Assembly: GCA_011390415.1 (NCBI GenBank)
Contig: JAABSL010000044.1
Location: 1-35,459 of the forward strand
From: Desulfobacteraceae bacterium
GTDB lineage: Bacteria > Desulfobacterota > Desulfobacteria > Desulfobacterales > Desulfosalsimonadaceae
DNA length: 35,459 nucleotides
Reading direction: 5' to 3'
This document shows, piece after piece, positions 15,448-22,728 of this stretch. The notes below the pieces were generated by a model, which had not been told where the DNA came from, made no database searches, and was given only the letters and a program-made list of their open reading frames with translations. Made by a program: the position numbers and the translations under genes. Every line of letters begins with the position of its first letter. The stretch's first letter is position 1.

Positions 15448-16803
15448 ATGGAAAAAATCTGGCAAAAAGTCAAAAGTACCATTAAAGAAAGTATCCCTTC
15501 CCACGTCTATAAAATGTGGATTGAACCGGTGCATTTTTTTAAAACCAACGGTGAAAACATCGTACTGACCTGCCCAAATAATTTTTTGAAAAAACGGGTG
15601 ATCGATAATTTCGGCGCATTGATAAAAAATGAGCTGACTCGGGAGGCCGGGGACGGGCATGATTTTTTGCTGGAGGTGTCGCGGGGCAACGGAAGGAATA
15701 CGGTACAACTGCCGGCAATGCCAGCAAATCGGGACATCCAGCTCACGCTGCCGCAAGTCGATATCCGCCCGAAAAATGGAAGAATGCTCAGGAAAGATTT
15801 TACATTTGACCAGTTTGTGGTCGGCGATAACAGTGATTTTGCCTATATGGCGGCACTTTCCCTGGCTTCTCAGAAAAAACCGTCACAGAATTCATTGCTG
15901 TTGTTCTCGCCGCCGGGTATGGGAAAAAGCCACTTGTCCCAGGCCGCCGGCCATCAGATTCTTTCCGCCTTTCCCAATGAACGCATTTTTTATATAACGG
16001 CCGAAGATTTTACCAATGAGATGGTCATGGCGTTTAAGCGAAATTCCATTGATGAATTTAAAAAGAAATACCGATCCTGCTGTGACGTCCTGTTACTGGA
16101 AGACATTCATATGCTGTCCGGACGGACGCGAACCCAGGAAGAACTGGCATTAACGCTGGATTATTTAAATGAGACCGGGAAAAAAATAATCTATTCCAGC
16201 AGTATTCAGCTGGCTAAAATTCCCAAAATGAGCGAACAGCTGAAATCCCGAATTGCGGTCAGCATGATTTCTGAGATTGAACCGCCGGATTTCCGGACCC
16301 GGGTGAAGATTCTCCGGCATAAGGCCAGGCACAATTCCCTTCGCGTGCCATCCGAAGTCATCGAATTCATGGCAAGCGAATTAAAGCAAAATGTCAGAAT
16401 CCTGGAAAGCGGTCTGATCGGTGTGACCACCAAATCATGTCTTCTCGGCATGCCCGTGGACCTGGCGCTGGCAGAGAGCATTGTTAAAAATATTATTTCA
16501 ACCAATAGCCATATCACCATTGATGTGATCAAAAATCTGGTATCCCGGGAGTTCGGCATTACCGTCAAAGATATGATTTCCAAATCCCGGAAACAGGCGG
16601 TTGTCCGGCCCCGGCAAATCGCCATTTTCCTTTCCCGGCGGTATACGGACCAGACCATCCAGTCCATCGGAAAAAGTTTTAACCGGTACCATGCCACGGT
16701 GATTCATTCCATCCACGCGGTTGAAAAGGATTTAAAAGGAAAAGGGGAAATGCAAAAGCAGGTGGATATTATTGAGCAAAAATTAAAAGCAGGTAATTTC
16801 TAA
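15448..16803 (+). CDS. Divergent DnaA-type initiator protein
   Basis: 451 residues with the whole DnaA layout: domain I (1-75), short linker, AAA+ domain (about 115-345) and C-terminal DNA-binding domain (about 355-440). Walker A reads SPPGMGKSH (154-162) rather than GGxGLGKTH, and Walker B is LLLEDIH (215-221) rather than LLIDDIQ. The arginine-finger segment LKSRI (R268) and sensor 2 NVRILES (R317) are kept. The DNA-binding helix keeps RPRQIA (387-392), but the signature is FNRYHATVIH instead of FGGRDHTTVLH. One Gly is missing, and Asp and Thr base-contact positions are Tyr414 and Ala416. It is probably a paralogue with altered DNA specificity. No dnaN, recF, gyrB or rpmH is nearby. The start follows GAGGAT. 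Confidence 0.88.
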   Translation: MEKIWQKVKSTIKESIPSHVYKMWIEPVHFFKTNGENIVLTCPNNFLKKRVIDNFGALIKNELTREAGDGHDFLLEVSRGNGRNTVQLPAMPANRDIQLTLPQVDIRPKNGRMLRKDFTFDQFVVGDNSDFAYMAALSLASQKKPSQNSLLLFSPPGMGKSHLSQAAGHQILSAFPNERIFYITAEDFTNEMVMAFKRNSIDEFKKKYRSCCDVLLLEDIHMLSGRTRTQEELALTLDYLNETGKKIIYSSSIQLAKIPKMSEQLKSRIAVSMISEIEPPDFRTRVKILRHKARHNSLRVPSEVIEFMASELKQNVRILESGLIGVTTKSCLLGMPVDLALAESIVKNIISTNSHITIDVIKNLVSREFGITVKDMISKSRKQAVVRPRQIAIFLSRRYTDQTIQSIGKSFNRYHATVIHSIHAVEKDLKGKGEMQKQVDIIEQKLKAGNF

Positions 16804-21069: not shown

Positions 21070-22467
21070 TTAATTATAATCCGGTTCTCCGGCAGAATCA
21101 TAGCCTTCATACTCGTAGGCGATATTTTCAAAACGGGTATAGGAATCCTTGAAACTGAGCTGCTGCATGCCGGTGGGGCCGCTGCGGTGTTTGGCAATAA
21201 TGATTTCCGCATTGCCTTTGTGGGGGTTGTTCTCGTCTTTGTTGTAGACCTCGTCCCGGTAAATAAACATGACAATATCCGCGTCCTGTTCAAGGGCACC
21301 GGATTCTCTTAAGTCGGACAGCTGCGGCCGCTTGTCACTTCTTTCTTCCAGGCGCCGGTTCAGCTGGGACAGGGCAATAATGGGAATATTGAGCTCTTTT
21401 GCCAGGGCTTTTAACGAGCGGGACATCTCGGAAATTTCCAGGTCCCGGCGATCCATGGCCGAGCGGGGTTTCATCAGCTGGAGGTAATCAATGATAATCA
21501 GCCCGATATTTTTTTCCAGTTTCAGGCGGCGTGCCTTTGTTTTTACGTCCAGAGACGTCAGTTCGGAAGAATCATCCAGAAAAATGGGGGATTCGGATAA
21601 AATATCCGCAGCATCCGTCAGTTTGTTCCAGTCATCGTCGCTGAAAAAACCGCTCCGGACAGACGATGAATCAATCCGTGCTTCTGAGCACAAAAGCCGC
21701 ATGGAAAGCTGCTCTTTGGACATTTCCAGGGAAAAAAACAAAACCGGCGTTTCGGAATCCACCGCAATATTCCGGGCCAGGTTTAAGGAAAAGGCGGTTT
21801 TTCCCATACCCGGGCGGGCGGCCAGAATGATCAGGTCCGAACCCTGAAGTCCGGAAGTTAAGGTGTCGAGTTTTTTAAATCCGGTGGAAAGGCCGCTGAT
21901 CAGGGATTTGTTGCCCCGTCGTTCCACCAGCGCATCAATGTTCATATCAATGGCCTGGCTGATGGGATAATAGGAGGGCTTGCTTTTATTGTCCGCGATT
22001 TCAAAGATGATGCTTTCCGCAAAATCAATGACATCATCAACCCCGGAGGTATTGTCGAAACAGCGGTTTGAAATATCGCTGGCCGCCTTGATCATCCGCC
22101 GCAAAGAGGCGTTGTCCCGTATGATTTTGGCATATTCCACCGCATTGGCCGGAATGGGGGCCGTGTCCATCAATTTGGCCAGATAAACTGCGCCGCCGAT
22201 CTCATCCAGCTGATTATTGCTTTTCAGCGCATTGGCCAGGGTGACCAGATCAATGGGCTCATTTTTGTGGGACATTTCAGTGATGGTTTTGAAGATTTTC
22301 TGGTGGGCGGTCCGATAAAAATCTTCTGCTGAAAGAATGTCCAGAATATTCAGCAATGTATAATTATCAAGCAGAATGGCGCTGATAATGGATTCTTCCG
22401 CATCAATATTTTGCGGCGGCAGGCTGCCGGAAGGCGGCTGTGTGGTCTTCGTCCGTTTGGTGTTCAT
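21070..22467 (-). CDS. dnaB: Replicative DNA helicase DnaB
   Basis: 465 residues from ATG at 22467 (MNTKRTKTTQ). A longer frame starting at 22623 adds 52 unlikely residues and crosses a hairpin, so I chose the shorter form, which matches the family length of about 454-471. The N-terminal collar domain begins NIDAEESIISAILLD. The RecA-like helicase core has AARPGMGKTAFSLN (Walker A), FFSLEMSKEQL, IIIDYLQLM (Walker B) and a late SDLRESGALEQDAD with FIYRDEVY. DnaB unwinds DNA at the fork as a hexamer. No intein is visible. It lies 17 bases before hflX and 261 bases after rplI. Confidence 0.96.
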   Translation of the reverse strand: MNTKRTKTTQPPSGSLPPQNIDAEESIISAILLDNYTLLNILDILSAEDFYRTAHQKIFKTITEMSHKNEPIDLVTLANALKSNNQLDEIGGAVYLAKLMDTAPIPANAVEYAKIIRDNASLRRMIKAASDISNRCFDNTSGVDDVIDFAESIIFEIADNKSKPSYYPISQAIDMNIDALVERRGNKSLISGLSTGFKKLDTLTSGLQGSDLIILAARPGMGKTAFSLNLARNIAVDSETPVLFFSLEMSKEQLSMRLLCSEARIDSSSVRSGFFSDDDWNKLTDAADILSESPIFLDDSSELTSLDVKTKARRLKLEKNIGLIIIDYLQLMKPRSAMDRRDLEISEMSRSLKALAKELNIPIIALSQLNRRLEERSDKRPQLSDLRESGALEQDADIVMFIYRDEVYNKDENNPHKGNAEIIIAKHRSGPTGMQQLSFKDSYTRFENIAYEYEGYDSAGEPDYN

Positions 22468-22728
22468 ATCGAAAAAACAGGGCCCAGTGTTTGAAGAGAT
22501 AAAAATTTGAAACGGGTCAGCCGATAAAAACAATGGTTCATTTGACAACGCAGCATTGTAACAACCGGTTTTTACGTTATCGGGAAGGAATGCGCGCAAC
22601 ACCGGGTGCCGGTGTTGCGGCAAACCATTATAAGGAAATAAAAAGGTGCGGCATTGATCGTATCACCGCATTTTTTTTGCAAAGCTTCAGTTGCCCGCAA
22701 TGTTTTTTACTGCAAGTCCTTAAAACTT
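22468..22728. other. Spacer between rplI and dnaB with a perfect hairpin
   Basis: CGCAACACCGG (22595-22605) and CCGGTGTTGCG (22609-22619) form a perfect 11-bp stem on a three-base GTG loop. On the minus strand a weaker stem (TGCGG/CCGCA, about 22648-22672) sits between A- and T-rich runs and could terminate the ribosomal-protein transcript. The rest shows no gene. Confidence 0.65.

Follow-up and report, generated by a model that had tools for sequence, protein, structure and literature searches.

A short-loop DnaA as the probable sole initiator in the Desulfobacterales, with a putative shift of DnaA-box preference at position 6

The dnaA gene described here probably encodes the sole and otherwise orthodox initiator of its host, a DnaA of a short-loop lineage that would act at an origin beside dnaN-gyrB and whose box preference appears to have shifted at position 6. 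Few bacterial pairs are as strongly conserved as DnaA and the DnaA box. The gene lies in a stretch of 35,459 nt (the window) from a sulfate-reducer-type bacterium of the order Desulfobacterales, the assembly of which comprises 3.4 Mb in 346 contigs and is 91% complete. It is the only DnaA in that assembly, its DNA-contact loop is of a type found across the order, it belongs to one of two DnaA lineages, and the box TTATNAACA is enriched across the order in dnaA upstream regions as well as at the dnaN origin; binding of the box and use of the origin are predicted from these patterns. A preliminary description of the same DNA had reported a divergent DnaA with altered DNA-contact and nucleotide-binding motifs, which is confirmed, and had interpreted it as a second initiator or a DnaA-like regulator with a different target sequence, which is supported in part.

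The window protein scores 383.3 bits in a profile search against the NCBIfam equivalog model for DnaA, TIGR00362 (cut-off, 343.9), and DnaA_N, Bac_DnaA, and Bac_DnaA_C all exceed their Pfam cut-offs in the order I, III, IV, bearing out the earlier statement that the full DnaA architecture is kept. The variant motifs quoted there (PPGMGKS, LLLED, and FNRYHATVIH) are all present. The ATPase motifs comprise PGMGKS, LLLED, the box VII SR pair at residues 267-268, and the sensor II arginine R317, the SR pair and R317 being invariant in our alignment. Because the GxGKS core of Walker A and the acidic pair of Walker B are retained, and because closely similar forms of both motifs are general across the Desulfobacterales, ATP binding is probably unaffected by these variants. 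An Hda or AAA+-only DnaA-like regulator was considered and rejected, since the protein reaches only 72 bits against the Hda model (cut-off, 195) and carries domain IV. The best match in the PDB by sequence is Bacillus subtilis DnaA (8btg; E = 1e-73). An AlphaFold model (pLDDT 76, pTM 0.49), in which domain packing is unsure, aligns with 8btg with a Z score of 25.8 and an rmsd of 6.9 over 331 residues, adding little to the sequence matches.

Table 1. Features of the window around dnaA
Feature	Position	Strand	Remarks
AT-rich intergenic region upstream of dnaA	14881..15447	.	no exact TTATNAACA or TTATNCACA
TTGTCCACA, probable diverged DnaA box upstream of dnaA	15022..15030	-	in sisters TTATCAACA, TTATGAACA or TTATCGACA
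dnaA, short-loop lineage, sole DnaA of the assembly	15448..16803	+	451 aa, ATG start
DnaA_N (domain I), residues 2-61	15451..15630	+	Pfam
AAA+ ATPase domain III, residues 114-273	15787..16266	+	
Walker A FSPPGMGKSHL, residues 153-163	15904..15936	+	GxGKS core intact
Walker B LLLED, residues 215-219	16090..16104	+	E-D kept in most of the order
Bac_DnaA_C (domain IV, HTH)	16519..16719	+	
DNA-contact loop FNRYHATVIH, residues 411-420	16678..16707	+	FGGRDHTTVLH in E. coli
FAD-linked oxidase (GlcD-like), directly downstream of dnaA	16813..18192	+	same place in many relatives
dnaB, replicative helicase	21070..22623	-	within conserved dnaA-glcD-IMPase-hflX-dnaB block

The loop that contacts DNA is where the protein departs most clearly from the canonical type. 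Relative to E. coli DnaA, one residue (430) is missing, D433 is replaced by Y, and T435 is replaced by A, so that the GG[RK]DH[ST]T loop with Asp433, associated with recognition of canonical-type boxes, is absent and F-NRYHAT is found instead. R399, R407, H434, T436, and H439 are kept, and the other changes are K415 to R and P423 to Q. Nearly all the Desulfobacterales DnaAs that we read have a loop of the form F-NR[YMLK]H[AG]T, and nearly all have F-NRYHAT itself; exceptions to the latter include Met, Leu, or Lys at position 433 within the family of the host, and a single genome with FRRHHAT. The papers searched contain nothing about this loop motif, nor about duplicated DnaAs in this group.

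The preliminary description had noted that no classical origin genes lie nearby. This holds for dnaN, gyrB, and rnpA, but dnaB and the genes for ribosomal proteins L9 and S6 lie within 9 kb of the window dnaA, in a block conserved across the order. None of 47 dnaA loci fetched contains dnaN. In the complete chromosomes of Desulfosarcina widdelii and Desulfosarcina alkanivorans, rdgC, dnaN-gyrB, and rng-rnpA-yidC-jag-mnmE-parS follow one another, as judged from gene names assigned by reading the sequences, at a distance of about 2.7 Mb from dnaA, and contig C306 of the host assembly carries rnpA-yidC-jag-mnmE together with a perfect parS (jag likewise read from sequence). GC skew over the whole chromosome, taken at 20 points, was weak, noisy, and only roughly informative, and a parS search together with local skew was used in its place. 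The local skew minimum lies within 0.6 kb of the dnaN start in D. alkanivorans and within 3.2 kb of it in D. widdelii, and in these complete Desulfosarcina chromosomes boxes are found at, or no more than 3 kb from, the minimum beside dnaN, with parS 16 kb away. One chromosome (G028) is less clear and counts against this placement, since dnaN has no box upstream and lies 22 kb away from the local minimum. Two sampled 20-kb stretches of the same chromosome, at 1.35 and 1.58 Mb, have a GC content of 34-37%, compared with about 57% for the chromosome, and are perhaps large foreign islands. In the host assembly dnaN was not found, implying that the host's own oriC is absent from the assembly, which also counts against our reading. 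In five assemblies that are 91-100% complete (G000, G003, G004, G008, and G012) dnaN was not detected, possibly because contigs break at the origin.

The earlier suggestion of a different target sequence gains support at the level of the clade, where TTATNAACA appears to replace TTATNCACA as the enriched motif, in dnaA upstream regions as well as at the origin. In an unbiased scan of all 9-mer patterns of the form abcdNefgh upstream of dnaN in 55 genomes of the order, compared with dinucleotide shuffles, TTATNAACA ranked first (31 loci versus 3.2 in shuffled sequence) and TTATNGACA second (14 versus 1.2), whereas canonical TTATNCACA was at chance (3 sites versus 1.7). Regions upstream of dnaA, an independent set, gave the same picture, with 62 occurrences of TTATNAACA against 5 and TTATNCACA again at chance (3 against 2.6); TTATNCACA is also absent from the whole window. 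The canonical 9-mer TTATCCACA contrasts with TTATCAACA and TTATCGACA in having C rather than A or G at position 6. Boxes upstream of dnaN favour certain spacings from the gene, near -60 and near -200. The same scan in an outgroup from the phylum placed TTATNCACA first, at 17 of 29 loci against 0.2 expected, and so recovers known biology; these loci come from the 30 best-scoring of 118 genomes, a choice that favours canonical loops, and nearly all have a GG[RK]DH loop. The difference between order and outgroup gives Fisher p values of about 1e-10 by site and 2e-5 by locus, uncorrected for phylogeny among related genomes that are not independent. A box with A at position 6 (A6) occurs at least once in 29 of 45 families, in support of the shift. 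Since outgroups whose loop is canonical show a secondary enrichment of TTATNAACA as well (10 versus 0.5), the change would be a shift of preference rather than the adoption of a wholly new site.

These data bear on the strongest alternative, in which the sole DnaA is an ordinary one that has kept its preference for TTATNCACA, the loop has changed by neutral drift, and TTATNAACA is a mark of AT-rich upstream regions or of another regulator. Retention of H434, T436, and R399, together with the secondary enrichment of TTATNAACA alongside canonical DnaAs, would suit this explanation. We nevertheless consider it unlikely, because TTATNAACA far exceeds its frequency in dinucleotide-preserving shuffles (62 and 54 observed, about 5 and 4 expected), because TTATNCACA, which heads the scan in the outgroups, does not rise above chance in the order, and because the boxes are positioned and lie at the origin. 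Some observations count against a shifted preference. The exact A6 box is missing from 24 of the 55 dnaN-upstream regions of the order, and exact TTATNAACA does not occur in the host's own dnaA upstream region, the TTGTCCACA site there, in the place of the boxes of sister species, being probably a diverged box. A listing of boxes in the host genome, from which the dnaN region is missing, gave scattered sites and no cluster, and a search for doubled-box patterns across genomes gave few matches. In one genome (G060, near 4505.65 kb) an AT-rich run, AATAATAATATTAATA, directly follows the box TTATTAACA and resembles DnaA-trio repeats by eye.

We favour a reading in which an origin located beside dnaN-gyrB, away from dnaA, would be bound and opened by an assembly of ATP-DnaA recognizing a 9-mer whose preferred form may have moved from TTATNCACA to TTATNAACA, with A, or in some cases G, replacing C at position 6. 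This shift probably stems from the shorter loop, in which Asp433 has given way to Tyr (or Met, Leu, or Lys) and Thr435 to Ala. D433 of E. coli has been described as highly conserved and as contacting box position 7 (PMC8235120; see also PMC5043019). Position 7 neighbours the shifted position 6, in keeping with our reading, although a contact at 7 rather than at 6 counts against it; which residue would read position 6 can be suggested only by inference from the loop. When box counts were split by residue 433 (Y, M, L, or K), non-Tyr genomes were few and the residue was confounded with phylogeny.

A profile search of the host assembly gave a single Bac_DnaA_C match and no second, canonical dnaA. 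Two weaker Bac_DnaA matches proved to be IS21-type ATPases adjoining transposase-like ORFs and were set aside. Among 60 Desulfobacterales relatives, a single strong DnaA match (at least 77 bits, the next reaching 51 bits) was found in 58, many of them 97-100% complete, and none has two. Weak Bac_DnaA_C matches (20-50 bits) are numerous in genomes of the order (for example, G001, G006, G019, and G031), each with several such ORFs of about 330 aa, possibly REP-type transposases with a DnaA_C-like domain. The preliminary description had itself taken a loop variant shared by the single DnaAs of related genomes to argue against a second initiator, and nearly all of these single DnaAs have the same loop type. 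It is thus very improbable that the genome holds a canonical DnaA besides this one and that the window protein serves as an accessory initiator or as a DnaA-like regulator; the incompleteness of the fragmented host assembly and the coexistence of both DnaA types in genomes of other orders leave it some room, but no second DnaA was found in the host and no second strong match in the 58 relatives. The idea of a second initiator accordingly finds no support in the host and survives in terms of descent, since the lineage does coexist with canonical DnaA elsewhere.

In a quick tree of 90 DnaAs, made without bootstraps, all the sequences of the order fall inside the short-loop lineage (47 rows; SH-aLRT 100), and in a tree of the same kind made without domain IV the short-loop label needs only two changes. 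The Desulfobacterales have the short-loop type only, whereas the genomes sampled from other orders include seven with both types (G073, G139, G176, G098, G131, G110, and G091); in all six of these read with flanks (all but G091) it is the canonical copy, not the short-loop one, that lies next to dnaN. One of them, G139, has three DnaAs, a canonical one adjoining dnaN and two short-loop copies elsewhere. In G098 and G131 the canonical DnaAs are on very long branches and lie beside equally diverged DnaN proteins (76-79 bits to references), with the short-loop DnaA elsewhere. The dnaA-glcD adjacency of the window recurs in three distant genomes that have short-loop DnaA only. The simplest history is that an old second DnaA became the sole initiator in the Desulfobacterales and that the canonical copy beside dnaN was lost; transfer of a short-loop DnaA is also possible. 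We suggest tentatively, as something close to an even chance but short of it, that this was a natural rewiring, in which a paralogous DnaA replaced the canonical initiator across the order, dnaA left the origin, and box position 6 coevolved with the loss of Asp433. If loop and box did change together, the order would offer a natural experiment on replacing an essential initiator and rewriting its target, of which the gene's relatives that still coexist with canonical DnaA in other orders would form part. Origin finders that seek TTATNCACA next to dnaA would misplace origins in the Desulfobacterales.

Compared with the canonical DnaAs of E. coli and B. subtilis (TIGR00362), the window protein has the same order of domain I, AAA+, and HTH and the same Walker motifs and box VII and sensor II arginines, and differs in a loop one residue shorter, in D433Y, T435A, and P423Q, in a gene located away from dnaN, and in the clade box TTATNAACA. 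Thermotoga maritima DnaA also combines a short FNRxH loop (FNRSHP) with a noncanonical box, ACCTACCAC (PMC10316083), but that box is unrelated in sequence, whereas the Desulfobacterales box is changed at one position. Respecification to an unrelated box as in Thermotoga, with TTATNAACA incidental, would fit the shared short loop but is the least probable explanation of all, given that only one position separates the top motif of the unbiased scan from the canonical box. In other orders of the Desulfobacterota, second DnaA copies away from dnaN belong to the same deep short-loop lineage whether or not domain IV is included in the tree; they differ in coexisting with a canonical DnaA that lies next to dnaN, or in being the sole DnaA of small genomes, and in often keeping Asp433. 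The DnaAs of Epsilonproteobacteria likewise show a clade-specific box shift, which has been attributed to substitutions in helix 5 (PMC5043019), but there the shift is at box position 5, the residues are those equivalent to 435, 438, and 439, and D433 is kept.
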